Assembly (NCBI RefSeq): GCF_030540775.2
Contig: NZ_CP141266.1
Coordinates: 4,389,001 to 4,453,000, forward strand
Direction of reading: 5' to 3'
Origin: Flavivirga abyssicola
Lineage (GTDB): Bacteria > Bacteroidota > Bacteroidia > Flavobacteriales > Flavobacteriaceae
DNA length: 64,000 nucleotides
Shown: one piece after another, positions 1 to 64,000 of the stretch
Numbering within the stretch: the stretch's first letter is position 1
How the letters are laid out: each line of letters begins with the position of its first letter
Translations under genes and position numbers: made by a program
Notes under the pieces: generated by a model
Database searches by the model: none
What the model was told of the DNA's origin: nothing
What the model saw: only the letters and a program-made list of their open reading frames with translations

Positions 1-564
1 AAACCTTATGAAATAGACTTTAAGGACCATCAACTGATGCTAATTAATACTAATGTAAAGCATAGTTTATCTGATAGTGCCTATAACGACAGACGTTCTG
101 CTTGTGAAAGTATTGCCGAATTACTCGGAATTAAAGCATTAAGAGATGCTACTGAAACCGATTTAGAAACTATTAAAGACAAAGTGTTACCAGAAAATTA
201 TCAAAAAGCACTTTATGTTATTCAAGAAAACAATAGAGCTATAAAAGCCTCAAAAGCTATTGAAACTAATGACTTAGAAACACTAGGTGCTTTAATATTT
301 CAATCACATAATGGTTTACAACATCAATATAAAGTAAGCTGTGATGAATTAGATTTCTTAGTAGACCAGGCAAAAGCCAACGAACATGTTTTAGGAGCTA
401 GAATGATGGGTGGTGGTTTTGGTGGTTGTACCATTAATTTAGTTTCAAAAAGTGAAGCTAAAGCTTTTGGAGAAGCCGCATCTATAGCTTACAAAAATGA
501 ATTTGACAAAGCGTGTTCTGTTTACTTTATAAAATTATCTGAAGGCACACACTTAGTAAAATAA
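1..564 (+). CDS. galK: Galactokinase, C-terminal part (cut by window edge)
   Basis: The frame is open from base 1, so only the last ~187 codons of a usual ~380-390 are present. Galactokinase phosphorylates galactose to galactose-1-phosphate in the cytoplasmic Leloir pathway. The visible family mark is the glycine-rich loop MMGGGFGGCTI (bases ~403-435), the third motif of GHMP kinases, followed by a normal short C-terminal tail. galT starts 20 bp after the stop on the same strand, so the two are probably co-transcribed. The ATP-binding and sugar-binding N-terminal motifs lie outside the window. Another GHMP kinase is unlikely given the galT neighbour. Confidence 0.93.
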   Translation, partial: KPYEIDFKDHQLMLINTNVKHSLSDSAYNDRRSACESIAELLGIKALRDATETDLETIKDKVLPENYQKALYVIQENNRAIKASKAIETNDLETLGALIFQSHNGLQHQYKVSCDELDFLVDQAKANEHVLGARMMGGGFGGCTINLVSKSEAKAFGEAASIAYKNEFDKACSVYFIKLSEGTHLVK

Positions 565-39674: not shown

Positions 39675-40955
39675 TTATTTTGTACCATTTAAAAATTTAG
39701 GCTTTAATACCAACATAGCCCAAGCCCAATTTTGGGTATCGGATGCAGCATCTTCTGTAATTCCTTTTAGTTCATACATTCCATCTGAAGGAAACATATG
39801 TGAATATCCAGCCACTAGCGCATAACCTTTAAATTTCTTTTTGAAAACCAAATCAATTTCTGTTCCTAATGATTTCTCTCCGCTAGGTAATTCTTGCTCT
39901 CCACTAAAGTTTAAAGCTTTAACCATAAGGCTTGATGTGTCACTTAATGTAAAGTTTGCACTTGCGTGAATATCGAATAAACCAACTGAATTTCCATGAT
40001 TCCCTACGTAGAAATAATCCATGAACCCATTAAATTTATGATTGGTTCCATATAATGGGAAAAATGCACCTGTCTCTCCTGGATCTGCATCATTTCCGCT
40101 AATAATTTCTAAACCTGCTCCTAATTTAACTTTATCAGACGCTTTGTATGTTAAATCTAAGCCTAAAAGATACGCGCCTTTTACGTCTATTTCATTTTGT
40201 CTTTTACCGGTTTGTAAAAATGCATTAGCTGCTAAACCAAAGCTACCCACATTATAGTTTAAATGAGTACCTAACGTTTGTAAGTTACTCACACCATCTG
40301 GATTATCATTCGTATCAAATTCCTGGAAACCATTATTCATTAATAACAAGCTCCCTGAAAAGTTTTCCCAAGCTTGCTTTAAATAAGCATACTGCATGGT
40401 TTTGTATGAAAAGAAACCTGTAGTATTATATGCGGTTCCAACAGACTGAAAACCTGTTGGGTTAGAGTAATCCTGGTTAAACGCAAATGCAACATCTATT
40501 AAGAATTTGTCCTTTTTATATTTTATCAACGCCGCATCATGGTTACGCCCTTGTTGTGCCCAGTCTAATCCCCCAAGAATTCTCTGATCATCATAAGACA
40601 ATACTTGACGTCCTAATTTAGTTGACCATCCAGATCCAAAATTAATTTCTGCCCAAGCTTGAAAAACAGCAAATGAATTATTCTGGTCGTAAGGTAAAAT
40701 CTGTCTGTTTTCTCCCCAAACCAAAATATCTTGAAAGCTCACATAAAACTTATAAGCATCTACAGCATATCCTGCATTTAAACGTATACGGGTTGAAATA
40801 CCATAACCAGCATCGGCATCGTCGGCTATAAGGCTTCCAAAGCCGTTACGATATTCTGTACGTGGACGAAATTCGCCATCTAAAGTAAATTGTGCTTGTA
40901 CAAAATTTAAGCACCCTGCTAGTAATAGCCCCAATATTACATATTGTTTTTTCAT
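39675..40955 (-). CDS. Alginate_exp-family outer-membrane porin of the nitrate locus
   Basis: 426 residues with a cleaved Sec signal (cut near FVQA-QF). The mature text is a continuous series of amphipathic strands with aromatic girdles, starting LDGEFRPRTEYRNG and including LGRQVLSYDDQRILG, typical of Alginate_exp/OprE-like 18-strand barrels. Members of this family often sit beside nitrate/nitrite genes in Bacteroidota, so an anion channel for nitrate or nitrite is plausible (inference). Its promoter has a -7 box TACATTTG (41018-41025) with an imperfect Fnr-type site 30 bp upstream. It is the last gene of the locus on the left and is closed by a strong terminator. Confidence 0.85.
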   Translation of the reverse strand: MKKQYVILGLLLAGCLNFVQAQFTLDGEFRPRTEYRNGFGSLIADDADAGYGISTRIRLNAGYAVDAYKFYVSFQDILVWGENRQILPYDQNNSFAVFQAWAEINFGSGWSTKLGRQVLSYDDQRILGGLDWAQQGRNHDAALIKYKKDKFLIDVAFAFNQDYSNPTGFQSVGTAYNTTGFFSYKTMQYAYLKQAWENFSGSLLLMNNGFQEFDTNDNPDGVSNLQTLGTHLNYNVGSFGLAANAFLQTGKRQNEIDVKGAYLLGLDLTYKASDKVKLGAGLEIISGNDADPGETGAFFPLYGTNHKFNGFMDYFYVGNHGNSVGLFDIHASANFTLSDTSSLMVKALNFSGEQELPSGEKSLGTEIDLVFKKKFKGYALVAGYSHMFPSDGMYELKGITEDAASDTQNWAWAMLVLKPKFLNGTK

Positions 40956-41017: not shown

Positions 41018-41060
41018 CAAATGTAAAAAGACAAAAACATCTTATTTATGACAAATCTCA
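41018..41060 (-). promoter_or_regulatory. Porin promoter with imperfect Fnr-type site
   Basis: Minus strand: TGAGATTTGTCA (41049-41060) followed 29.5 bases (centre to box) later by TACATTTG (41018-41025). The right half GTCA is perfect; the left half TGAG has one mismatch to TGAY. Spacing equals that at napD, nrfH and moeA. Confidence 0.55.
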
Positions 41061-45615: not shown

Positions 45616-46033
45616 AATTTTTAGTTTTAAATTAACTAAGTATTTATACTTATTTAAGACAAATATATAAGTACTAACACTTATAGCTTATGCAAATACA
45701 CATATGCAATCATCTTTTTTCACATAGTCAAACCTGCAAAAAAACATAAAACCATTATAAAAGTCTGATTTTAAAATAATTAAATATTAAAAAGAGATAC
45801 TAAACGTTCTACGTAATTGGTATAAAAAAGTAACGGTATTTGTATTTTTAATAAAAATAAAGGCTAAACATTAGCACTATTTATTTGTCTCTAACAGGAA
45901 AACATACAGAAAATAATAAACGAACGAAGTTTAGCTTAATAATGAAACTATTCTATTAAAAATCAATAAATGATATTCTTTGTGTCAGGTTGAGCCTTTC
46001 GACTCACGCGTTAAAAGGAGAATATTTATGACT
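45616..46033. other. Spacer with the nrtA-like promoter
   Basis: 418 bases between the binding-protein gene and the pentaheme gene. It contains the promoter and palindromes at 45637-45683, and a remnant of the spacer repeat (about 45982-46010, GTCAGGTTGAGCCTTTCGAC). The rest is AT-rich without a gene. Confidence 0.6.
45637..45683 (-). promoter_or_regulatory. nrtA-like promoter with two TAAGTA palindromes
   Basis: The -7 box TATATTTG is on the minus strand at 45660-45667. Palindrome 1, TAAGTATTTATACTTA (45637-45652), begins 7 bases after the box. Palindrome 2, TAAGTACTAACACTTA (45668-45683, one mismatch), directly abuts the box upstream. The box-to-palindrome-1 spacing is identical at the globin promoter (49665-49695). 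Confidence 0.6.
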
Positions 46034-48385: not shown

Positions 48386-49195
48386 TTATTTCGCTGCTAC
48401 AAGATGTTTCATAGTCTCATAAGATGCTAACTTTTTAACACTATCAAGAAAAACTTCGGCTGTTGGCAAATAATTTCCTTCTGCTGGCCATTTTTTGCCT
48501 ATTTCCGGCTTTTCACTTTCCTTAAAGGCTTTAATTTCATCCAAATATTCCATGTATATATCTACAGTCCCCTTAGCATAAGAGTTTAAAACCGCTATAG
48601 TTTCTTTGTATGTTAATGAATCTTTTGGGTATTGCCATGTCGTAGCTCCCATAACATCTCCTAATTTCCAATCTGATTTTGTTGTCTGAGGATGTTCATT
48701 ATGACAACTTACACAAGCTCCTGCACTGGCTAAATCTGCAAACATTGCAGTATGCAGTTTTTGCTCTTCGTCATAGAAAAATTGTGGTTTTTGATCCTTT
48801 TTAATTTGTTTAAATAAATCCGCCTGCTTTCCTTCAAATTTATTGGCTGCATTTACCGGAAAATCAGATCCCAAATACAAGCCTAAAGGCACGGGGTTCT
48901 TTCTAATACTCGTGGCTACACCTCTTAAAAATAATGCTGGTAATGGTCCTGCTTCTACATCGTCCTTTCTCCAGTCTTCGTCAAACTTCATTCCTTGTTT
49001 TTTACCTTTACCTACTATGGCTTTTGTATAGAGTGTTCTTGTAACATCATTCTCTTTAGCTACCATTTCTAATACGTCTTCTACAGAAAAGGCATTTTCT
49101 ATACTTGTTGTTTCTGATTTTTCTTCTGGAACTCCACCACATGAAACTAAAATGATACATGTTAATGGTAATATGGTTTTGTAAATAATCTTCAT
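48386..49195 (-). CDS. DUF3365 (Tll0287-like) monoheme c-type lipoprotein
   Basis: 269 residues. The lipobox LVSC places the acylated Cys at 19. The DUF3365 domain (~35-190) ends with the single heme site CVSCHNEHP. Domain relatives include sensor and cytochrome proteins with a PAS-like fold that bind heme c. A helical tail (~200-269) follows. The globin gene lies 21 bases upstream and the b-type protein follows, so it belongs to the same operon. It may act as a redox or NO-responsive carrier; function unproven. Confidence 0.85.
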   Translation of the reverse strand: MKIIYKTILPLTCIILVSCGGVPEEKSETTSIENAFSVEDVLEMVAKENDVTRTLYTKAIVGKGKKQGMKFDEDWRKDDVEAGPLPALFLRGVATSIRKNPVPLGLYLGSDFPVNAANKFEGKQADLFKQIKKDQKPQFFYDEEQKLHTAMFADLASAGACVSCHNEHPQTTKSDWKLGDVMGATTWQYPKDSLTYKETIAVLNSYAKGTVDIYMEYLDEIKAFKESEKPEIGKKWPAEGNYLPTAEVFLDSVKKLASYETMKHLVAAK

Positions 49196-49664: not shown

Positions 49665-49695
49665 TAAGTATTAGTACTTATTTAAGGCAAAAATA
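49665..49695 (-). promoter_or_regulatory. Globin promoter with TAAGTA palindrome
   Basis: Minus strand: TATTTTTG (-7 box, 49688-49695), a 7-base gap, then the perfect palindrome TAAGTACTAATACTTA (49665-49680) just downstream of the expected start site. Box, gap (nCTTAAA-like) and palindrome match the nrtA-like promoter, suggesting control by the same factor, most simply a repressor. Confidence 0.6.
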
Positions 49696-49939
49696 AATAG
49701 TAGTTTCTTAATTAATTATGAAATAATACAGTTGTAAATGGTCTTTTACCGCATGTGAAAAGCTGTCAAAACGCAGTTAATTATTTAAGAATGGAGAAAG
49801 GGAGCGGTTTTAGAGCTACTGTGTATATCTAAATATCAATACGTATTAGGAAGTTGGACACGAATTTCACTGATTAACGTCTGTTTGACTTGAATAGCAC
49901 TCAAAAAAATCAGATCAATTACCTGAAATATAAGTGTTT

Positions 49940-50210: not shown

Positions 50211-50969
50211 CTAGCTGTCCAAGAAGTAATTATGCTCGCTAATCTCTTTTTTAAGTAGTGGAATATTGCTTATACCAATCTTCTTTCCTTTTGCTATAAT
50301 AAGCTTTTCCTTTTTAAGTGCAGAAAATGCACGAATAACCTGTTCTTCTGTAGTTCCAGCATAGTCGGCATACTCTCTCCGGCTTAAAGGTAAGTTTAAA
50401 AAGCCTTTTAAATGGCCAAATTTTCGGTGGATATATAACAAGGTATCAATAACACGTTCTCGAACAGTCATTTGCGAAATGGATTTTACTTTATTTTCAC
50501 TTCTATTAAGCTCATCTGCATAAAATAGCATCATATCGTAAGTGAACTTAGGGTTTTCGAGTAACGCTTCTTGTAAATCGTTCTTTGAAAAATAACACAA
50601 AACTGTGTCTTGCAATGCAATAGCACCTATAGAATAGTATTCTTCAGTTCCAAAACCACGATGACCGATAATTTCTCCTTCTTTGGCAAACCTTACGATT
50701 TGTTCTCTTCCATTAATACCTGTTCGAAAGACTTTTACAGTACCTTTTAAAATAAAAAATAAGCCATTTACGGGAGCGCCTTCAATGATGAACTGCTGCC
50801 CTTTTTTACACTTGATATTGTTCTTTTTATTCGTGAAATTAGAGCTTTCTAAAGTAGACAGGTTCTTTTTGATTAAACAGTTCGTATTATCACATAAATT
50901 GCACGCTAAACCAGACAACGGATTTGCTCTCTGTTTTACCTCTTTTATGCTTTTAAACGTTGACTGCAT
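50211..50969 (-). CDS. Crp/Fnr-family regulator with N-terminal cysteine cluster
   Basis: 252 residues. The N-terminus has Cys23-x2-Cys26-x4-Cys31 with a further Cys54, close to the CX2CX5C cluster that binds the O2-sensing iron-sulfur centre in E. coli FNR. A cNMP-type beta-roll (~55-150) leads to a helix-turn-helix at ~195-230 (SRREYADYAGTTEEQVIRAF). Its recognition helix keeps Glu and Arg at the positions that read the TTGAT half-site in FNR. It is thus the best candidate to bind the TGAY-N4-RTCA sites of this locus. It lies between the globin and nrf groups. It may sense oxygen or NO. Confidence 0.92.
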   Translation of the reverse strand: MQSTFKSIKEVKQRANPLSGLACNLCDNTNCLIKKNLSTLESSNFTNKKNNIKCKKGQQFIIEGAPVNGLFFILKGTVKVFRTGINGREQIVRFAKEGEIIGHRGFGTEEYYSIGAIALQDTVLCYFSKNDLQEALLENPKFTYDMMLFYADELNRSENKVKSISQMTVRERVIDTLLYIHRKFGHLKGFLNLPLSRREYADYAGTTEEQVIRAFSALKKEKLIIAKGKKIGISNIPLLKKEISEHNYFLDS

Positions 50970-51464
50970 TCTCTTTAAGTACTCATTTAAGTATTATGTG
51001 ATATCACGAATATAAGTATTAATACGTATAATTATAAATACCGCATTCACTTTTAAGAGAAAACTAAAAATCAATATTCAAATTCACAACATGGTAATTT
51101 TGAATATTGATTTATGGCAAATTCGTAAAATAAAAAGCTTGATTTTTATTCAACTTTTAATGTAACCACTCCTAATTATTTGATAGTTATAAGTTTGTCA
51201 TTACTATAGGTGTAGGAATCCACTTAAATATTGAAAATATTAAATTATTACTTTATTCTATTAAATAAATGATATCTTATTTTAACCACTAGCCATACAA
51301 ATCTTAAGTATTATGATAGTTTATTTGTTAAAGTAAAATAATGTTAGTGTATGGTTCATACATGAATCATTTTATAAATTTGTGGATTCCTGCCTCCGCA
51401 GGAATGACAAAAACTGCATATTGACGAAAAAGTAAAAAGAAAACTGTTGTTAGTTACTAATTCA
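50970..51464. other. Upstream region of the Crp/Fnr gene
   Basis: 495 bases. Near the gene are two TAAGTA half-sites in direct order (50976-50993) and a palindrome TAAGTATTAATACGTA (51013-51028, one mismatch), related to those at nrtA and the globin gene. The short palindrome GTGATATCAC (50998-51007) lies between them. A remnant of a spacer repeat is at about 51384-51413. No gene. Confidence 0.5.
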
Positions 51465-54715: not shown

Positions 54716-56212
54716 CTATTTATTCATTGATACTTTTTTAGTATCGTAACCTGCTTCACGGGCTTTTGCTTCTTCTAACCATTTCGGAACCAGATTTTGT
54801 TTAAATGCTTCTTTATCTTGTTTCATTTTTTCAACATCTAAACCTATATATTCTTGTGCTTTTTCTTTAGTAGAAATATCCGGCATCTCAACAGGTTCAT
54901 TATGTCCTAATTCAGATAACAAACGAGCTAATTTTAAACGCCCTTCTTGAATAACGGTAAACGCACTTCCCATAACTCTTGCTGTTTCAACTGGCGAGTG
55001 AAATGATGCGCCATGTGCTGCTGCAGAATAATCCCAGCGCCATTGTGCATGACGAATATCCATTAAGATGTCCTTCATTTGTTCTTCTGTGGCTCCTAAG
55101 TCCCAGGCTTTTTTAGCTTCTATATGTGCCTTAACGATGAAATCTTCTAATTTTAATCTGTTTTCTGCTGCTTTACGCTGACGTTCGTAAACATTTTCCT
55201 TTAGCTTATCGGCATCTTCTCTATGACACACTTGACATGCATTAGCAACATTGTTTAAAGGTGATTGGATATGATGATCCGTGAATTTCTGTCCCCCTTC
55301 ACTCTTGTAAGGCATATGACAATCTGCACAAGATACGCCTCTATCGGCATGAACACCCGTTAAATATGTTTCGTAACCAGGATGTTGCGCTTTAAGCATA
55401 GGTGCACGGCTTAACTTATGTGTCCAATCTTTAAAATTAATATCGTCATAATATTTTTCCATAGCTTCAACAGACATCCCATTTTTCCATGGGAATTTTA
55501 AATAAGGGACACCTTCGTTACCTGGATTTTTCTTATCAAAATAGTATTCAACATGACATTGCGCACAAACTAAAGAACGCATTTCCTGATGGGTTGCCTG
55601 GTTGATATCCTTACCCATTTCTTCAAAAGCTTCTACTAAGGCTGGTCTGGAAATGGTTAGCTTCATCGTTTTTGAATCGTGACAATCTGCACAACCAATA
55701 GGGTTAACAACTTCAGCGCCTTTATCTGCCCATTTTCCTGAGTAAAACTCAGCGATACCATTTTCGTTCATTAAACGTGGTACATCTGGACTTTTACAAG
55801 TCCAACATGTCGCAGGCATAGGACCGTCACCTTTTCCTTTAGGGCCTCCTGTTCTTAAAGAATTACGTAAATCTTCAATAGCATACTGGTGTCCTCTTCC
55901 CTGATTATAATCTTTTGCAAACCCATATCCAGCCCAAAGTACAACTAAGCGTGAATCTTCATGTAGCACATCTCTCATGGCTGAACCACCTTGCTGTGAT
56001 GCGAAATCAGTTTCTGCTGTTTGTAAAAACGATTGATATTCGGCTGGGTAATTTTTTCCCCATTCTTCATTTCGTGGTTCGTTTTCACTTATTTCAACTT
56101 GCGGAACGTATTTATATTTAGCCTCATTCTTTCTGTTAACAATACTAGATGCTAACAAGCCTAGTAGAAATACTACTATTGCTGTAACGATAAATAATAC
56201 TTTGTTTTTCAT
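54716..56212 (-). CDS. nrfA: Ammonia-forming cytochrome c nitrite reductase, catalytic subunit
   Basis: 498 residues from the ATG at 56212 (MKNKVLFIV), which gives a clean N-terminal signal anchor; the upstream ATG at 56254 lies inside nrfH. Five heme sites: the catalytic CWTCK with lysine as heme ligand, then CADCH, CAQCH, CADCH and CQVCH. Conserved HQCHVEYYF-like substrate/Ca region (CAQCHVEYYF) and RHAQWRWDY are present. NrfA reduces nitrite to ammonium with six electrons in the periplasm, receiving them from NrfH, encoded just upstream. The start is 11 bases downstream of the nrfH stop, in a different frame. Confidence 0.97.
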   Translation of the reverse strand: MKNKVLFIVTAIVVFLLGLLASSIVNRKNEAKYKYVPQVEISENEPRNEEWGKNYPAEYQSFLQTAETDFASQQGGSAMRDVLHEDSRLVVLWAGYGFAKDYNQGRGHQYAIEDLRNSLRTGGPKGKGDGPMPATCWTCKSPDVPRLMNENGIAEFYSGKWADKGAEVVNPIGCADCHDSKTMKLTISRPALVEAFEEMGKDINQATHQEMRSLVCAQCHVEYYFDKKNPGNEGVPYLKFPWKNGMSVEAMEKYYDDINFKDWTHKLSRAPMLKAQHPGYETYLTGVHADRGVSCADCHMPYKSEGGQKFTDHHIQSPLNNVANACQVCHREDADKLKENVYERQRKAAENRLKLEDFIVKAHIEAKKAWDLGATEEQMKDILMDIRHAQWRWDYSAAAHGASFHSPVETARVMGSAFTVIQEGRLKLARLLSELGHNEPVEMPDISTKEKAQEYIGLDVEKMKQDKEAFKQNLVPKWLEEAKAREAGYDTKKVSMNK

Positions 56213-56223
56213 TTTTGTTATAA

Positions 56224-56823
56224 TTATTTGTCTTCTATTTGTTTTTCTAACCAATCCGGGATAACAGTTTCCTCTGTATCTGTTGGAATAGGTGCAATGT
56301 TATTCTTTATAGTGGATATTCCGTGTACAGTGCCATGCGGTACTTCTTGATGACAACTCCAACATTTCCGCTCTGTTCTGTTTTTTGCATGATCGTCTAT
56401 CCAACCGTCATACTTAGTTTGTGTGACTTGCTGTACATGACAACGAATACAATTATTTTGTACAACTTCCTGAGATTCTTCCCGCATAAACATAACTTCT
56501 GGTTCTGCCCTTAAAGTAAATACGGAAGCGTGAAACAAGCCGTCTTTTGCTTTAAAATAATATTTATTAAATACATTGTTATGAGGTACGTGACAATCGT
56601 TACAGTTTGCCCATTCTCGATGTGAACTATGCATCCAACTATTATAAACGGGTGTCATAACATGGCAGTTAACACAGGCAAGTGGATTGTCTGACATATA
56701 AGAAACCACTTCTGCTTCTTTAGCCATAAAAAGCCCCAGCCCAGTAATAACAGCAATTAAAAAAACCGCGACAGTTCTCCATCTCGATTTTTTATCTGGT
56801 AATATGTTTTTTTTAAGATTCAC
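56224..56823 (-). CDS. nrfH: Cytochrome c nitrite reductase small subunit (quinol dehydrogenase)
   Basis: 199 residues, NapC/NirT family. An N-terminal membrane helix (~18-36) precedes four heme sites: CVNCH, CNDCH, CIRCH and CWSCH, with the short spacing of NrfH. It oxidises menaquinol in the inner membrane and passes electrons to NrfA. It is the first gene of nrfHA-ccsBA; its promoter has an Fnr-type site (56966-56977) about 30 bp upstream of a -7-like box. The C-terminus beyond the last heme is longer than average. Confidence 0.95.
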   Translation of the reverse strand: MNLKKNILPDKKSRWRTVAVFLIAVITGLGLFMAKEAEVVSYMSDNPLACVNCHVMTPVYNSWMHSSHREWANCNDCHVPHNNVFNKYYFKAKDGLFHASVFTLRAEPEVMFMREESQEVVQNNCIRCHVQQVTQTKYDGWIDDHAKNRTERKCWSCHQEVPHGTVHGISTIKNNIAPIPTDTEETVIPDWLEKQIEDK

Positions 56824-56934: not shown

Positions 56935-56977
56935 CAAATCTCTTATATTTTAAGAGTAAATAAACTGACATATATCA
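56935..56977 (-). promoter_or_regulatory. nrfH promoter with Fnr-type site
   Basis: TGACATATATCA (56966-56977) matches TGAY-N4-RTCA; on the minus strand it reads TGATATATGTCA. Its centre is 29.5 bases upstream of GAGATTTG (56935-56942), a -7 box with one mismatch to TAnnTTTG. Confidence 0.6.
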
Positions 56978-57041
56978 TATTTAAAGATATTTTCATCTTA
57001 AAACTACAGAAATATAACATACCCATTTACATTTTCTTCTT

Positions 57042-58262
57042 TTATTTCTTTTTATACTTTAATTTCCCTAATTCTATCCCTATTGCTGTTTTAGCAAGGA
57101 TTGTAAATACAAAAGCTCCTAGCGCCCAAATACCTAATGTGACTCCTATTTCAATACCTGTAGGCATATACTCAGCTATTTTTCCGTAAGGTCCAGGAAT
57201 AAATCCAGGAACAATAAGTCCGAATCCTTTTTCAATCCAAATAGCAACAAATAATATGAAGCAACAAAAGAAGAGCACTTTAAAATTGTTTCTAAGCTTA
57301 TGGAACGTTAATAAGACCGTGGCTAATACATTTAAAGGTATGGCCGTCCAAATCCATGGTAATAAAGCATCCTTACCATCTAATCCAAAGAAAAGATAAT
57401 AGGCACTTTCACTATGATGTGTTGGCGCATAAAACTCTTTAAATAATTCTGAGATAAGCATGATTAAATTTATTTGAGCAGCTACAGTAACAACCATTGC
57501 AATCTTTTTAATGGTCTTATCTTGAATTTTAAATTCCGTAAAGTTTCTAATAATAGCTAAAACCAAAATAATTAATGCAGGTCCTGCTGCAAATGCTGAT
57601 GCCAAAAACCGAGGGCCTAATAGGGCATTATTCCAAAACGGACGTGCTTGTAACCCTTGATATAAAAATGCAGTAACTAAGTGAATCGCAACAGCCCAAA
57701 AAACAGATAAAATAGCTCCTGGGATATATACACTGCGTTTAGCTTCTTTGCCTTGATAATGTCTAAATAAAATATAAAATGGAATGGTAATATTTAAAAA
57801 CAAATAGCCATTAAGTACCAATACATCCCATGTTAACATGGAGTTTGGAAAGTTAAACACGCCAATCCCTGGAATCATATGCCATAACACTGAAGGCCCT
57901 CCCATATCTGCTATTACAAAAGCTAAACACATAATAAGTGCCGCCACTGCTAAGCCCTCACCAATAAGCACTGCTTGTTTAAAATCGATATCTTTTAAAA
58001 CGTAGGTGGGCATAACAAGCATAACTGCTGCGGCCGCCACACCAACTAAAAAAGTAAAATTAGAAATATATAAGCCCCAACTCACTCTATCTGTCATACC
58101 GGTAACACTAAGCCCGTGCTCTAATTGAATGGAATAACAATACATCCCAGCCAACATGACAAAAGTTAAGAGTGCCATCCATAAATGATACTTTTTTGAA
58201 CCATGTGTTATCGTGTCTAAACTGTCCTTAACTAAACTTCCAAAAACTTTTAATCGTTTCAT
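57042..58262 (-). CDS. nrfD: NrfD/PsrC-type membrane quinol oxidoreductase subunit
   Basis: 406 residues with 8-10 membrane helices. The NrfD pattern WGLYISNFTFLVGVAAAAVML near the first helices and GGPSVLWHMIPGIG in the third loop are visible. It exchanges electrons between menaquinol and the ferredoxin-like subunit encoded directly upstream (58463-59593). It is the last gene of the nap operon, 200 bases after that gene, with a spacer repeat in between. It replaces the usual NapC/NapH quinol dehydrogenase; an alternative is service to the nrf system on its left. Confidence 0.9.
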   Translation of the reverse strand: MKRLKVFGSLVKDSLDTITHGSKKYHLWMALLTFVMLAGMYCYSIQLEHGLSVTGMTDRVSWGLYISNFTFLVGVAAAAVMLVMPTYVLKDIDFKQAVLIGEGLAVAALIMCLAFVIADMGGPSVLWHMIPGIGVFNFPNSMLTWDVLVLNGYLFLNITIPFYILFRHYQGKEAKRSVYIPGAILSVFWAVAIHLVTAFLYQGLQARPFWNNALLGPRFLASAFAAGPALIILVLAIIRNFTEFKIQDKTIKKIAMVVTVAAQINLIMLISELFKEFYAPTHHSESAYYLFFGLDGKDALLPWIWTAIPLNVLATVLLTFHKLRNNFKVLFFCCFILFVAIWIEKGFGLIVPGFIPGPYGKIAEYMPTGIEIGVTLGIWALGAFVFTILAKTAIGIELGKLKYKKK

Positions 58263-58329
58263 CTGTTTTATTTATTTTTTATGCAATTGGTTAATAACCT
58301 ATTGAACTTTTCATTATATTTTTTAATCT

Positions 58330-58413
58330 GTCATTACGAGGAGCCTGCGACGTGGTAATCTTTCTCTTATTTAAACAGATTGCCACAACATTTTCCAAAT
58401 GTTTCGCAATGAC
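58330..58413. repeat. 84-base spacer repeat inside the nap operon
   Basis: Ends are GTCATTACGA and TCGCAATGAC, inverted repeats differing in one base. It contains GAGCCTGCGACGTGG. This is the common flavobacterial non-coding repeat; here it lies between nrfC- and nrfD-like genes and would be transcribed. Confidence 0.65.
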
Positions 58414-58462
58414 GTACTATTTTGTAATTCCTGCTTATTAACAGGTCTAACACTAAACGGTG

Positions 58463-59593
58463 TTAGTCCATAAAATACCAGAACTTAGGTTCTGTACCTA
58501 AATCTTCCTTTAATCTAAATACTTTTTTATTCTCCAAAACCCATCTAATTGTACTATCTGGATCTAACAGATTTCCAAAAATTCTAGCTCCTGTAGGACA
58601 GGCTTCAACACATGCAGGGTTTTTACCGGCTCTGGATCGTTGTACACAGAATGTACATTTTTCCATAACGCCTTTTTTACGCATACGATTTCCTAAATAA
58701 TGCTGATTATGATTAATTTCTGATTCTGGTACTTCGGGCTTACTCCAGTTAAATCGTCTACCGTCATAAGGGCAAGCAGCCATACAATATCTACAACCAA
58801 CACACCAATCATAATCGACAACCACCAATCCATCATCTTCTCGCCAGGTGGCTTGCACGGGGCATACTTCTACACATGGTGGATTATCACAATGAAAACA
58901 CTGTGTTCCCATGTAAAAATGTCCTTGCGCAGGCACTTCGTGATAGTAATTATCGTCAGCCTCATTAAAATTGAAACCCTTACCATCTTTCATTTCATGG
59001 ATTCTTATATATTGCATTTGGGAGTTTCGGTCTTGATTATTCTCCTCTACACATGCATTTACACAATCCATGTACCCCTGACATTTAGAAATATTAAAGG
59101 CATAACCAAACAACACATCTTCTTCTGCATTTTTAGATGACATGCTTATATTTTTTCCTGTTCTTAATTGATACGAACGTACCAACCTATCCACAGTCGC
59201 TTCTTTTTCTTTGTCGGTCATCAATTTATAGTTTCCTTTAAATTGCTCTTCCCAATCTATTTGTGCTTTTTCTTTGCTTTCATCGCCGCTAATTACACTA
59301 CAAGATGTGCTCACTGCTCCCGCTCCAATTAACAAGCTGGCTGTTAGCTTTTTAAAAGCGCTTCGTCTGTCCATTTTCACATCAAAAACCTGCTCAAATC
59401 CATCTTTGGTTCTTTCTTCTCCTATAGACGCATTTATAGCAGCCTCAGTAAATGCTTCATTTGTCATGTGGTGTGCATTAGAACTACCACCACAACCTCC
59501 GGAAGACTTTCCACAACTACAGGAACCAGAAGACGTTTTTTCCTTCCTGCCAATATTTAATGAAAACCATTTTTTGTTATTATTACTACTCAT
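58463..59593 (-). CDS. nrfC: NrfC-like ferredoxin with four [4Fe-4S] sites
   Basis: 376 residues. Four clusters are encoded: CQGYMDCVNAC, CFHCDNPPCVEVC, CVGCRYCMAAC and CTFCVQRSRAGKNPAC with their complementary cysteines. A twin-Arg-like MDRRSAFKKLTASLLIG segment sits at about residues 73-90, so there is a long cytoplasmic-looking N-terminal extension with a Cys/Gly-rich stretch (SCSCGKSSGGCGG, ~19-31), an arrangement typical of the ActB-like branch. It probably carries electrons between NrfD and the cytochromes that feed NapA. It lies between the tetraheme lipoprotein and nrfD. Confidence 0.88.
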   Translation of the reverse strand: MSSNNNKKWFSLNIGRKEKTSSGSCSCGKSSGGCGGSSNAHHMTNEAFTEAAINASIGEERTKDGFEQVFDVKMDRRSAFKKLTASLLIGAGAVSTSCSVISGDESKEKAQIDWEEQFKGNYKLMTDKEKEATVDRLVRSYQLRTGKNISMSSKNAEEDVLFGYAFNISKCQGYMDCVNACVEENNQDRNSQMQYIRIHEMKDGKGFNFNEADDNYYHEVPAQGHFYMGTQCFHCDNPPCVEVCPVQATWREDDGLVVVDYDWCVGCRYCMAACPYDGRRFNWSKPEVPESEINHNQHYLGNRMRKKGVMEKCTFCVQRSRAGKNPACVEACPTGARIFGNLLDPDSTIRWVLENKKVFRLKEDLGTEPKFWYFMD

Positions 59594-59627
59594 ACCTAAA
59601 TATTATTAATTCCATAAATGGTGTTAG

Positions 59628-60236
59628 TTATTCTCTTTCTTTTACCTTTTGGGTATTAAATCGTGCTGGCCATCTTGACTCAAAATGAGGCTTGTGCGGA
59701 TCGTGACAATTCACACAAGTCATAGAGGCTCTCGGCGGTGCCCATCCTCCTATACGTTTACCATGTGCACCTCCTTTCCAATCTTCAAATTGTTTGGTAT
59801 GGCATTGATTACACAGGTTATAACTCGTATTAAAATCAATAGTATGTCCTGTAAGACTTCTTAAATCATCTATATTATCTGGATTATGACAAGTCACACA
59901 ATTCATTGTATTCTCATTAGCATGATCCATTTTAATATCCCAATGTGCCTTTTGAATGTCTTTACTCTTCATTTGTGACAAAGGTTTAGAATGGCACTCG
60001 GTACAGGCATAAGACTTAATTTGACTTTTTCTTTCGGGAATTAAAAACGTGTGATCGCCTTCTGTGATTTCTATGGTTTGTATCTCACCTATGTATGCTT
60101 CAGACGAGATTGAAGTTCCGTGATAATCTTTGCTTTCAGCTTCTATCTTATCAGTTATACTATGGTATTCATTTTCATGGTGTTTACAAGAAAAAAATGC
60201 CAATAAGAAAACAGAAAAACAAACTATTTTATTCAT
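59628..60236 (-). CDS. Tetraheme c-type lipoprotein
   Basis: 202 residues from the ATG at 60236, which leaves a clean signal peptide ending FFSC; two other in-frame starts (60239, 60257) overlap or abut the previous gene. Four heme sites: CTECH, CVTCH, CNQCH and CVNCH, with many extra His. It is not a NapC/NrfH type (no membrane anchor). As a lipoprotein between NapB-like and NrfC-like genes, it probably links the ferredoxin to NapAB on the outer leaf of the membrane (inference). Confidence 0.85.
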   Translation of the reverse strand: MNKIVCFSVFLLAFFSCKHHENEYHSITDKIEAESKDYHGTSISSEAYIGEIQTIEITEGDHTFLIPERKSQIKSYACTECHSKPLSQMKSKDIQKAHWDIKMDHANENTMNCVTCHNPDNIDDLRSLTGHTIDFNTSYNLCNQCHTKQFEDWKGGAHGKRIGGWAPPRASMTCVNCHDPHKPHFESRWPARFNTQKVKERE

Positions 60237-60246
60237 CATATTTATA

Positions 60247-60939
60247 TTATTCTTCATGACCAGCTCTTTTAAAAGTTCCTACCTCGGTCATCTCTTTAGT
60301 ACTAGGTACGTGACATTGTCTACAGTTAACACGCTCTGGATGTGAGACTCTAATTTCTTTAGGTGCACTTGGGCCTGCATGGCAGGATAAGCAATTCTCT
60401 CTTAATTGAATTTGATGTGGAATCATTGGAGGGCTTCCTAATAAAGCATTGTTAACGCCTACTTTTGGAGCCATAACATGTGCATAGTTTCCACTTTTAA
60501 ATAAGGTCTGTGTATTTTGCTCCACATGGCATTGCTTACAGTTTACCAATTCTGGATGTGGTGTTACAGGAGCATAAGCTTGAAATTTTTCAGTAAATCC
60601 ACCATTTTCATGGCATTTCAAACAACTTTGGCCTCCCATGTTTTGTTGTTCGTCCACTGCATGTGGAATACTAGGAGGTGCTCCATGATACGCTCTGTTT
60701 TTATAGTAAGTGATTAATGACCTTTGATGATTCTTATCTACAGGCATATTCTCATAATCCATGGCGTGCTCAGAACGTTTAAAAACACCTGATTCTGATG
60801 GAATTGCATAAACACTACTATTGTCTTCAATTGGAATATAAGCTTCTTCAAGCCCTATTTCATAGCTGTAATTCCAAATAGTAATAAATGTTATAAAGAG
60901 AATTACAAATAACGATATGATACCTAGTCTTTTTTTCAT
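60247..60939 (-). CDS. NapB-like tetraheme cytochrome, internally duplicated
   Basis: 230 residues with a signal anchor (~5-25). NapB normally has two hemes. Here two NapB-like units occur in tandem: unit 1 GAPPSIPHAV ... CLKCH ... TPHPELVNCKQCHV (~73-155), unit 2 GSPPMIPHQI ... CLSCH ... SHPERVNCRQCHV (~160-225). So there are four CxxCH sites. NapB passes electrons to NapA in the periplasm; the doubled form could extend the electron wire and remove the need for NapC. It starts 2 bases after the napA stop, so it is certainly co-transcribed with it. Confidence 0.88.
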   Translation of the reverse strand: MKKRLGIISLFVILFITFITIWNYSYEIGLEEAYIPIEDNSSVYAIPSESGVFKRSEHAMDYENMPVDKNHQRSLITYYKNRAYHGAPPSIPHAVDEQQNMGGQSCLKCHENGGFTEKFQAYAPVTPHPELVNCKQCHVEQNTQTLFKSGNYAHVMAPKVGVNNALLGSPPMIPHQIQLRENCLSCHAGPSAPKEIRVSHPERVNCRQCHVPSTKEMTEVGTFKRAGHEE

Positions 60940-60941
60940 TG

Positions 60942-63269
60942 CTATGCTTTTTCAACTTTAACAGCGCATTTTTTATAGTCTGGCTCTTTAGAAATAGGAC
61001 AAAAAGCATCTAGCGTAACATCATTAATCAACATGTTTTCATCAAAGAAAGGCACAAAAACCTGTCCTTTAGTAGGTAGGCCTCTTTCATTTATAGAAGC
61101 TGGTAATATACATGATCCTCTTCGCGAGCTTACTTTTACTTTTTCACCATTTCTGATCCCCAATATTTTAGCATCTTCTGGGTGAAACTCTATATAGGCC
61201 TCTGGCATTGCTTTATGTAATACTGGAATTCTGCGAGTCATAGAGCCTGTGTGCCAATGTTCTATAACACGTCCCGTATTTAACCAAAATGGATATTCTG
61301 TATCTGGGGATTCTGCTGCTGGCTCATAAGGTCGTTGCCAAATAACAGCTTTACCGTCTGGTTTTCCATAAAAATGAAAATCTTTATCATTGCTACAGGC
61401 TGGGTCATATTTTGCGTTAAAACGCCATTGCGTAGATTTTCCATCTACATAAGGCCAAATAGCTCCAGATTCTTTTTTGAGAACCTCTAAAGGTGCCATG
61501 CCGTGTTTGGCACCTTCATGAAACTGTTTGTATTCGTTATATATTTCTTCTACGTGGTTTTCTTCACTATATGGAAACAAATCACCATAGCCCATTCGTT
61601 TTGCTATTTCAATAGTCATCCAAGCATCTGGAGTCGTTTCTCCTGGTCCTTCTACCATTTTATCCCAATGTTGTGTTCTACGCTCTGAGTTGCCGTATAA
61701 TCCACTTTTTTCTATATGCCAGGACGCTGGTAAAATAACGTCTGCAACATCAGATGTCGGTGTTGGAAATACATCTGAAACGACGACAAAACAAGAGTCT
61801 TTTTCCATACCTGGACGGTAACGACTTGTCTTTGGTAACGACACTAAAGGGTTAGTAACTTGTGTCCAGATAAATTTAATATCACCTCGGTCTACAGCTC
61901 TAAACATTTCCGTAGCATGATAGGTAGGTTTTGCTGGAATTCTTTCATAAGGCACCTTCCATATTTTAGCTGCTAAACGTCTGTGTTTTTCATTCGTTAC
62001 TACACCTTTTGGTAATTTATGTGTAAACGTCCCCACTTCTCTGGCTGTACCGCAAGCTGATGGCTGACCTGTTAAAGAAAATGGTCCGTTTCCTGGTTGT
62101 GAAATTTTACCAGTTAATAAGTGAATGTTATACACTAAGTTATTCATCCAGGTTCCTCTGGTATGTTGGTTCATCCCCATACACCAATAAGACACTACCT
62201 TTTTATTAGGATCTCCATAAATAGCAGCCAAATATTTAATGTCTTTTACAGATACTTTTGAATATTTTGCTACTTTCTCAGGCTTATAATCTTCCAAGAA
62301 TTTTTTATAGGCTTCAAAATCAATTTTGGTAGGCTTGTCTTTAAAATTAAATTTATCTTCAACACCATATCCCATGTTTGTTAAGCCTTTACTAAAGTTC
62401 ACATGGTTTTCTACAAACGATTTATTCATCCAACCATTATTAATAATCTCGTAACAAATGGCATTTGCAACAGCTAAATCTGTTTGTGGTTCAAATAAAA
62501 TCGATTTATTGGATGCTGTACTTGAACGTGTCGTTCTTGTGGCAAAATCTATAATTTTAGCACCCCTCCTGTTTTTTTGTTCTAACATTCTTGAGAATAA
62601 TACAGGATGCATTTCTGCCATATTATTACCCCAGGTAATGAAATAATCTGCATGGTCTATATCTTCATAACAGCCCATAGGCTCATCAGCTCCAAAAGTG
62701 GTTAAAAATCCAGCTACAGCACTTGCCATACATAGTCGCGCATTACAGTCTAAATTATTAGTTCCAATAGCCCCCTTCATCAATTTTGAAGCGACATAAC
62801 CTTCAGGAATTGTTGATTGTCCCGACGTATACATTGCTACTGAATCTTTACCATGCTTTTCAATGGTTTCCTTCATTTTATTAGCAACAATGTCTAAAGC
62901 TTCATTAATAGGTGTTTGGATATACCTCCCATTCTTCTTAACCAAAGCATGCGTTAGCCTATCTTTAGCCTGCGTACACATAATTTGATGGTAGCCTTTT
63001 ACACAAAGTAATCCTTTGTTTACTTCACAATTAGGATCACCTTTTACCGCTACTGCTTTTCCTTGATCCACTCCTACCAGGATACCGCATCCTACACCGC
63101 AAAAACGACAAGGTCCTTTTTTCCAATCTAGATTACCTCCTTTAGGTAGATTAGCATTTTGTTCTGAAGCAAATATAATTCCAGGGAACATCGATGCTGC
63201 CGCAGTCATTGCTGCAGCCGCTGCCATCTTTTTTAAAAAATTTCTTCTGTTAGTTAAAGAGTTTTGCAT
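60942..63269 (-). CDS. napA: Periplasmic nitrate reductase, catalytic subunit
   Basis: 775 residues. A Tat signal RRNFLKKMAAAAA opens the protein. The [4Fe-4S] site is CRFCGVGC ... CEVNKGLLCVKG (~53-90). The Mo-bis-MGD ligand is the Cys of NARLCMASAVAGF, as in NapA, not Asp as in NarG. The C-terminal cofactor-binding domain (FWLNTGRVIEHWHTGSMTRR) is complete. It reduces nitrate to nitrite in the periplasm. Upstream napD and downstream NapB-like gene are spaced by 2 bases each. Its length is slightly below E. coli NapA, as in the monomeric NapA branch. Confidence 0.97.
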   Translation of the reverse strand: MQNSLTNRRNFLKKMAAAAAMTAAASMFPGIIFASEQNANLPKGGNLDWKKGPCRFCGVGCGILVGVDQGKAVAVKGDPNCEVNKGLLCVKGYHQIMCTQAKDRLTHALVKKNGRYIQTPINEALDIVANKMKETIEKHGKDSVAMYTSGQSTIPEGYVASKLMKGAIGTNNLDCNARLCMASAVAGFLTTFGADEPMGCYEDIDHADYFITWGNNMAEMHPVLFSRMLEQKNRRGAKIIDFATRTTRSSTASNKSILFEPQTDLAVANAICYEIINNGWMNKSFVENHVNFSKGLTNMGYGVEDKFNFKDKPTKIDFEAYKKFLEDYKPEKVAKYSKVSVKDIKYLAAIYGDPNKKVVSYWCMGMNQHTRGTWMNNLVYNIHLLTGKISQPGNGPFSLTGQPSACGTAREVGTFTHKLPKGVVTNEKHRRLAAKIWKVPYERIPAKPTYHATEMFRAVDRGDIKFIWTQVTNPLVSLPKTSRYRPGMEKDSCFVVVSDVFPTPTSDVADVILPASWHIEKSGLYGNSERRTQHWDKMVEGPGETTPDAWMTIEIAKRMGYGDLFPYSEENHVEEIYNEYKQFHEGAKHGMAPLEVLKKESGAIWPYVDGKSTQWRFNAKYDPACSNDKDFHFYGKPDGKAVIWQRPYEPAAESPDTEYPFWLNTGRVIEHWHTGSMTRRIPVLHKAMPEAYIEFHPEDAKILGIRNGEKVKVSSRRGSCILPASINERGLPTKGQVFVPFFDENMLINDVTLDAFCPISKEPDYKKCAVKVEKA

Positions 63270-63271
63270 AT

Positions 63272-63511
63272 TTAGTTGTTTTTGGGTGTATTAAAGCCAG
63301 AAACCATTGCCAGAAGTTTTAAACTCTCAATAGCTTCAATGGACTCTTTTACTTTTTCGTCGTCAGTTTTATTTTCTGTATCGGTCACTACAATTAGTAG
63401 ATCTTTGTTCTCTGATGGAATAACATCACAATGGTCAATTTTGGACAAAGCCGCTATGAGTGCTTCTTTTTGACCTTCTTCCGGGTGTGCTAAATAACTT
63501 TTTATAGGCAT
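63272..63511 (-). CDS. napD: NapD, chaperone of NapA maturation
   Basis: 79 residues, the normal small size. NapD folds as a ferredoxin-like domain that binds the Tat signal of NapA and times export after cofactor loading. The pattern IKSYLAHPEEGQKEALIAAL ... LLIVVTDTEN with a central acidic stretch fits the family. It is the first gene of the nap operon; napA starts 2 bases after its stop. The promoter (63541-63583) carries a perfect Fnr-type site. Confidence 0.9.
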   Translation of the reverse strand: MPIKSYLAHPEEGQKEALIAALSKIDHCDVIPSENKDLLIVVTDTENKTDDEKVKESIEAIESLKLLAMVSGFNTPKNN

Positions 63512-63540
63512 AAAAAATGCGTTTATTTTTAAAACAGGAT

Positions 63541-63583
63541 AAAATTATCTTAAATGAAAAAGATAAAAACTGATAAATATCAT
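63541..63583 (-). promoter_or_regulatory. nap operon promoter with Fnr-type site
   Basis: TGATAAATATCA (63572-63583), exact TGAY-N4-RTCA, 29.5 bases (centre to box start) upstream of TAATTTTA (63541-63548), a -7 box with one mismatch. The geometry is that of class II activation. Confidence 0.65.
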
Positions 63584-63695
63584 AGAAAGGAGACTACGAA
63601 GTAATTTAAACTAAATCTAAATAACCTGTTTTTTGGCAGTTTTTGAACTGCTAAATATCAGGTTGTGAGGTCACAATAAATATAACATAAATAAC

Positions 63696-63739
63696 TGACA
63701 ATTGTCATGTCATATTAAAAATCAAAATCGTTATATTTG
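63696..63739 (+). promoter_or_regulatory. moeA promoter with Fnr-type site
   Basis: TGACAATTGTCA (63696-63707) is a perfect 12-base palindrome. The -7 box TATATTTG (63732-63739) starts 30.5 bases after its centre; the ATG of moeA follows 25 bases later. Confidence 0.65.
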
Positions 63740-63763
63740 CTGAGACATAACGATATTTATGAC

Positions 63764-64000
63764 ATGATAACAATACATGAGGCTATAAACGCTGTTAAAA
63801 ACAATATTACCCCTCTTTTTAAAGAAGAAACTAAACCGCTAGAAAGATGCGGAGGTTATCACTTGTCTAAAGATATTGTTTCACCTGTAAACATGCCTCC
63901 TTTTAGGCAATCTGCCATGGATGGTTATGCTTTGTATTTACATAATGACTTGTCATATAATTTGGTAGATGAAGTAAAAGCTGGTGATCATCATCAGCCT
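63764..64000 (+). CDS. moeA: Molybdopterin molybdotransferase MoeA, N-terminal part (cut by window edge)
   Basis: 79 codons visible from the ATG at 63764 (MITIHEAINAVKNNI). The signature PPFRQSAMDGYAL and the preceding LSKDIVSPVNMP identify MoeA, which inserts molybdate into adenylylated molybdopterin. NapA needs this cofactor, so the divergent position next to napD makes sense. The gene shares the divergent spacer and the Fnr-type operator pattern. The remaining ~310 residues lie outside the window. Confidence 0.93.
   Translation, partial: MITIHEAINAVKNNITPLFKEETKPLERCGGYHLSKDIVSPVNMPPFRQSAMDGYALYLHNDLSYNLVDEVKAGDHHQP

Follow-up and report, generated by a model that had tools for sequence, protein, structure and literature searches.

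Four promoters in a 64,000-nucleotide stretch of the Flavivirga abyssicola genome (the window; bases 4389001-4453000 of a single 4.68 Mb contig) carry the palindrome TGAY-N4-RTCA, in one case imperfectly, at a nearly constant distance from a -7 box of consensus TAnnTTTG. The promoters are those of nrfHA, napDA, moeA and a porin gene. The four sites probably (at a rough probability of 0.68) serve as operators in an FNR-type low-oxygen regulon that spans the genome. Its likeliest main reader appears to be P0002, a Crp/Fnr protein encoded 1.35 Mb from the window. P0001, the Crp/Fnr protein encoded within the window, would on the same estimate be unnecessary for these sites and belong instead with the nitrate genes.

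The sites and boxes, in window coordinates, with centres relative to predicted transcript starts, are as follows.

56966..56977, minus strand: nrfHA promoter, TGAY-N4-RTCA site TGACATATATCA, centre -41.5, read directly
56935..56942 (56942->56935), minus strand: nrfH -7 box GAGATTTG, one mismatch to TAnnTTTG, found again with one mismatch allowed
63571..63582, minus strand: napDA promoter, TGAY-N4-RTCA site TGATAAATATCA, centre -41.5, read directly
63540..63547 (63547->63540), minus strand: napD -7 box TAATTTTA, one mismatch to TAnnTTTG, found again with one mismatch allowed
63696..63707, plus strand: moeA promoter, TGAY-N4-RTCA site TGACAATTGTCA, centre -42.5, a gap-24 match in the genome scan
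63732..63739, plus strand: moeA -7 box TATATTTG, perfect
41049..41060, minus strand: porin promoter, imperfect site TGACAAATCTCA (TGAG-N4-GTCA on the sense strand), centre -41.5
41018..41025 (41025->41018), minus strand: porin gene -7 box TACATTTG, perfect

Measured from the centre of the site to the first base of the box, the distance was 29.5 bases at nrfH, napD and the porin gene, and 30.5 bases at moeA. The equal spacing reported in an earlier, sequence-only reading of this DNA was thus recovered on rereading the sequence. That reading had located the nrfH, moeA and porin sites exactly, and had placed the napD site one base above its actual position, 63571-63582. In Flavobacterium psychrophilum, for which transcript starts have been mapped, TAnnTTTG lies at -12 to -5 according to an excerpt of PMC9723704. 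A distance of 29.5 bases therefore puts the site centre at -41.5 from the predicted start, in agreement with the class II geometry that had been proposed. Taken alone the window makes a modest case, because the nrfH and napD boxes are mismatched and the palindrome by itself is not enriched there (6 observed against 4.05 expected, with 20 of 100 shuffles reaching 6).

The genome scan that the sequence-only reading had suggested was run with the pattern CAAANNTA-N{8..38}-TGAN6TCA. It gave 85 matches, of which 15 had a gap of 23 and six a gap of 24; the other 29 gaps averaged 2.2 matches each (Poisson P ~1e-8). The view that such spacing is hard to obtain by chance was therefore borne out genome-wide. 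No excess was seen at class I-like positions (gaps 39-68), where 56 matches, at most five per gap, compared with 60 in the reversed control. When TGAYN4RTCA at gap 23 was allowed up to one mismatch, 33 matches were found against 16 for the reversed control, so about half of these relaxed matches are noise.

Respiratory and fermentative genes were among the matches. Nine perfect gap-23 TGAYN4RTCA matches lie 17-84 nucleotides 5′ of start codons, one of them by way of an inner ATG. Their targets include HemN and CcoN, both reaching the NCBIfam cut-off, with a small frame, judged CcoS-like by eye, ahead of CcoN. Pyruvate formate-lyase (pflB) and phosphate acetyltransferase (pta) were recognized from partial proteins by Pfam and NCBIfam. 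The remainder are a thioredoxin-like protein, an MBL/rhodanese protein and three assigned by inspection, namely a c-type cytochrome, a lipoprotein and one protein that matched no Pfam family. One palindrome, at genome position 2196414 (region 2196383-2196457), has boxes for two divergent promoters, at gap 24 towards an Rrf2-like regulator and at gap 23 towards a c-type cytochrome (genes named by eye).

The same architecture was present in most genomes of the class. Among 296 Bacteroidia genomes, TGAYN4RTCA at gap 23 or 24 gave 1365 matches in 250 genomes, whereas the reversed pattern gave 83 matches in 68 genomes, a 16-fold excess. The 181 genomes encoding an FNR-like protein (P0001-like, E 1e-20) averaged 6.1 matches, and the other 115 averaged 2.2.

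Conservation in relatives was examined in upstream regions from loci around P0001 relatives, a site being scored as TGAN6TCA. A site was present upstream of napD in 15 of 15 relatives and upstream of nrfH in 13 of 13, 12 of these at gap 23; the remaining nrfH site (locus L007) has a different position and spacing (gap 25). Upstream of the porin gene, 24 of 59 relatives had a site with matching spacing, many with TGAG, and the imperfect half-site of the porin promoter is retained across genera. No sites were found in the control regions upstream of an nrfD-like gene (0/27) and ccsBA (0/13). Only one moeA upstream region was obtained from the relatives' loci, and it lacked a site. In five of 26 nap loci (nap-bearing genomes of the family, napA identity at least 69%) a single palindrome is flanked by a box at gap 22-23 on the nap side, with up to two mismatches, and by a perfect gap-24 TATATTTG facing away. 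The outer bases of 39 sites were uneven: A preceded TGA in 32 and T in one, and an outer A was found at the other end in none. As a separate observation, loci L006-L085 showed an excess of TGAY-N4-RTCA at gap 15 from a TAnnTTTG-like box (six perfect, 20 with one mismatch).

The genes served by the four window promoters are listed below.

60942..63269, minus strand: napA, periplasmic nitrate reductase (NCBIfam NapA, 950.8 bits)
63272..63511, minus strand: napD (Pfam NapD, E 6e-5, under the curated cut-off; assigned with its position before napA)
56224..56823, minus strand: nrfH (TIGR03153)
54716..56254, minus strand: nrfA (NF008339)
63737..64000, plus strand: 5′ part of moeA, which continues past the window end (Pfam MoeA_N)
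39675..40955, minus strand: porin of the alginate-export family (Pfam PF13372)

The interval between nrfH and napA (window 57042-60939) holds an electron-transfer module consisting of a DsrP-like membrane subunit, a DsrO-like ferredoxin and two multihaem cytochromes.

A search of the genome for Crp-type helix-turn-helix domains gave four proteins over the cut-off. By eye, only P0001 and P0002 retain both the Glu and the Arg of the recognition helix.

3088148-3088825 (genome coordinates): P0002, Crp/Fnr protein of 225 residues; gene adjoins ccoN (ccoNO, cbb3 oxidase) and a heavy-metal P-type ATPase gene
50211..50969 (window), minus strand: P0001, Crp/Fnr-type regulator of 252 amino acids, with conserved C23, C26, C31, C54 and C125

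P0002 matches PF00027 (cNMP-binding-like) and PF13545 (Crp-type helix-turn-helix), both over cut-off, and its helix TATESAIR has the Glu-x3-Arg of P0001 (compared by eye). Four cysteines, C4, C7, C53 and C106, are invariant in 23 of 23 relatives and could hold an oxygen-labile iron-sulphur (Fe-S) cluster. Their layout differs from the three N-terminal and one central cysteine of FNR, with only a CxxC at the N terminus. In 21 of the 23 relatives a TGA site is found no more than 300 bp 5′ of the P0002 gene, and in each case a box at gap 22-23 points away from that gene; in F. abyssicola the divergent gene encodes the heavy-metal P-type ATPase. The P0002 type occurs in 23 of the 26 nap-bearing family genomes. 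The other three carry a fusion of a CheY receiver to a Crp protein (loci L220, L221 and L257), about 350 amino acids long, with the helix ATESLIR where P0002 has ATESAIR. Possibly this fusion is a phosphorylation-driven reader of the same TGA sites. In the mechanism we propose, a Crp/Fnr dimer would bind TGAY-N4-RTCA centred at -41.5 or -42.5 and would activate the Bacteroidota-type TAnnTTTG promoters as a class II activator. Its main form would be P0002, with an oxygen-labile Fe-S cluster on the four invariant cysteines.

In P0001 three N-terminal cysteines and one central cysteine are present, the latter aligning with that of FNR, and the Glu and Arg of its recognition helix (TEEQVIR) align with those of FNR, as the sequence-only reading had claimed. 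In the 60 of 80 relatives with an extracted frame longer than 215 amino acids, C23 was conserved in 57, C26 in 58, C31 in 59, C125 in 58 and the extra C54 in all 60. Its nearest named relatives, in Flavivirga amylovorans and F. rizhaonensis, are 98-99% identical, and it scores far under the FixK and FnrL cut-offs. There was little sign of autoregulation of P0001 through a TGA site (2 of 19 fnr upstream regions).

These features bear on an alternative for the TGA sites, in which P0001, as an FNR, activates nap, nrf, moeA and the porin gene through TGAY-N4-RTCA, alone or with P0002. Its place within the cluster, its cysteines and its Glu and Arg speak for this. So does the distribution of strict nap sites, which were found in all nine nap-bearing genomes with P0001 (9 of the 26) and in nine of the 17 without it (P 0.02); P0001 may therefore act at nap. 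If the second palindrome described below belongs to a NarL-type regulator, no DNA word would be left to P0001, and TGA would then be the natural candidate. Against it, nap sites persist in those nine genomes without P0001, and the TGA architecture is class-wide, whereas P0001 relatives (at least 57% identity) occur in five of the 296 Bacteroidia genomes. Counted within the locus stretch available, a strict TGA site with box was present in 18 of 29 P0001 loci with respiratory nitrate genes, in 10 of 29 other loci and in none of 22 assimilatory loci. Where the porin was more than 60% identical, its site was present in 14 of 18 respiratory-type and 0 of 16 assimilatory-type P0001 loci. The link that had been drawn from the sites to the nearby Crp/Fnr gene is therefore doubtful, and we think P0001 unlikely to be their main reader. 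A regulator gene need not encode the main reader of the sites beside it. Equal spacing by coincidence in AT-rich promoter DNA, for which the unenriched window palindrome and two imperfect boxes of four might be cited, was rejected in view of the spike in the F. abyssicola genome, the class-wide excess over the reversed control and the napD and nrfH footprints in relatives; its probability is negligible. Several points do weigh against a regulon read mainly by P0002. Besides the imperfect nrfH and napD boxes and the uneven nap-site counts just given, gaps 33/34 also exceeded the reversed control, with matches in 147 of the 296 genomes, so some of the class-wide matches are background. P0002 lacks the customary third N-terminal cysteine, and the three nap-bearing genomes without P0002 all have the nap site.

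An unbiased count of palindromes in the intergenic DNA of 80 P0001 loci brought out a second sequence, TAAGTAT-N2-ATACTTA, in every context. All 80 loci have at least one copy with up to two mismatches. The copies in the window (no strand assigned) are as follows.

45637..45652: TAAGTAT palindrome TAAGTATTTATACTTA, 7 nucleotides 3′ of the nrtA -7 box TATATTTG (45667->45660)
45668..45683: second TAAGTAT palindrome, two mismatches, immediately 5′ of the nrtA -7 box
49665..49680: TAAGTAT palindrome TAAGTATTAGTACTTA, 7 nucleotides 3′ of the globin -7 box TATTTTTG (49695->49688)
49830..49845: TAAGTAT-like palindrome, two mismatches, farther 5′ of the globin gene
51013..51028: TAAGTAT palindrome TAAGTATTAATACGTA, overlapping the P0001 promoter -7 box TATATTCG (51014->51007)

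A gene for a Tll0287-like protein (window 48386-49195) adjoins the globin gene. With up to three mismatches the window held 17 TAAGTAT palindromes against 14.3 expected, five of them with 0-2 mismatches, and none with up to two mismatches lay at nap, nrf or moeA. Elsewhere in the genome the strict palindrome, besides the nrtA, globin and P0001 promoters, occurs once more, 42 kb past the window. This fourth copy precedes genes for a NarK-like transporter, a NasC-like nitrate reductase and a NirA-like protein, with NarX- and NarL-like genes near.

The palindrome is also positioned relative to the box, though differently from the TGA sites. It began 7, 8 or 9 nucleotides past the box in 63, 19 and 23 cases respectively (105 of 494 instance-by-strand comparisons), with at most four cases at any other distance and no spike at an activator-type spacing. 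With the box at -12 to -5, as in the excerpt of PMC9723704, these palindromes would cover about +4 to +19. Of the 80 P0001 promoters, 53 have a palindrome no more than 200 bp from the start; all 53 palindromes overlap the box, which begins at the last TA of the palindrome (40 exactly, 13 with one mismatch). Such positions, at the P0001, nitrate uptake and globin promoters, would be compatible with a repressor.

This palindrome would be read either by P0001 or by a response regulator of the NarL type; P0001 may read the TAAGTAT palindrome, the TGA site or both. That P0001 is an autoregulated repressor acting through it at nitrate uptake, globin and assimilatory nitrate reduction is possible, at somewhat under even odds. 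In keeping with this, all 80 P0001 loci have the palindrome, 53 of them over the box of P0001's own promoter, and TAAGTATNNRTACKTA was present in all 21 genomes of the family that have P0001, against 17 of 99 without it (Fisher 2e-13). The G of the half-site is also as far from the centre as it is in known CRP/FNR sites. The Glu of P0001 is less favourable, since elsewhere it pairs with an A after the G (excerpt of PMC1274295), whereas the half-site has T. The copies in genomes without P0001 were at one stage taken for background (17/99, against 23/120 genomes for the reversed pattern, counted by eye). This was dropped when eight of the 17 were examined: in three (G399, G405 and G316) the palindrome lies next to narK/nasC, accompanied by a NarL-like gene, and must have another reader there, whereas the other five stretches had no narK/nasC or NarL-like gene.

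The other candidate, to which we give close to an even chance, is a NarL-type response regulator that reads the palindrome and also controls P0001. A NarL-like gene is present in 20 of the 22 assimilatory P0001 loci, in all three genomes with the palindrome at nas genes and no P0001, and near the fourth F. abyssicola palindrome. The association of P0001 with the palindrome may therefore follow from gene content, and our confidence in P0001 as its reader, and overall, was lowered accordingly. There is a resemblance of TAAG-N-AT/AT-N-CTTA to the RcsB box and of TACTTAT to the NarL heptamer. The heptamers are nevertheless oriented opposite to those of the 7-2-7 NarL site (TACYYMT-N2-AKRRGTA), giving GTA-N4-TAC, and a nitrate-responsive activator would be unexpected at +4 to +19. 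None of the 29 respiratory-type P0001 stretches contains a NarL-like gene, although one may be present in other parts of those genomes. In one locus (L256, 9579-13665), genes for a NarX-like kinase with a PilJ domain and a LuxR-type response regulator, a candidate reader of the palindrome, lie close to the assimilatory nitrate genes.

Should P0001 and P0002 both be Fe-S Crp/Fnr proteins whose DNA words have diverged, they could form a reciprocal oxygen switch, an idea that we regard as rather improbable. P0002, acting from -41.5, would switch on the respiratory reduction of nitrate and nitrite, and P0001, an FNR-like sensor, would shut off assimilatory nitrate uptake and reduction through an operator over the transcription start. 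One cluster would then flip from nitrogen assimilation to nitrate respiration.

Among the matches listed in a search of open-licence PMC papers, neither an FNR regulon from Bacteroidota nor a TAAGTAT operator was described; in PMC8510549 the Flavobacteriales homologue found there is placed near MalR. For Bacteroidota, a phylum with its own -7 box, the present results offer a testable FNR regulon, comprising a site, a fixed spacing, a list of targets and a candidate regulator. The TGA-site signal reaches most of the 296 Bacteroidia genomes. A second conserved operator, with two candidate readers, is added for the nitrate genes of Flavobacteriaceae.

FNR control of such genes from class II positions is textbook for proteobacteria, and the E. 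coli FNR site is TTGAT-N4-ATCAA. The system proposed here resembles that of E. coli FNR in the Crp/Fnr fold, the cysteines (including the aligned central one of P0001), the Glu and Arg of the helix, the TGA-N6-TCA core at -41.5 and the targets pfl, hemN, nap, nrf and moeA. It differs in the base before TGA, which is predominantly A where E. coli sites have T, in an Ile at the position of the helix Ser, in the TAnnTTTG promoter, and in P0002, whose N terminus has a CxxC alone, plus C53. The adjacency of P0002 to ccoN, and hemN among the targets, recall the alphaproteobacterial FixK, FnrN and FnrL proteins encoded beside cbb3 oxidase genes; phylum, promoter class and cysteine layout differ. The TAAGTAT palindrome shares with NarL/NarP 7-2-7 sites and the RcsB box its TAC/GTA or TAAG/CTTA halves, and with the former its nitrate genes and, in many loci, a NarL-like gene nearby. 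Its heptamers face the opposite way, and the operator lies 3′ of the -7 box or overlaps it. HcpR2 of Bacteroides and Porphyromonas is likewise a nitrogen-oxide regulator of Crp/Fnr type from Bacteroidota; as described in the excerpt of PMC1274295, it differs in lacking the FNR cysteines, in having hcp targets and, in most cases, in its motif, GTAAC-N4-GTTAC.

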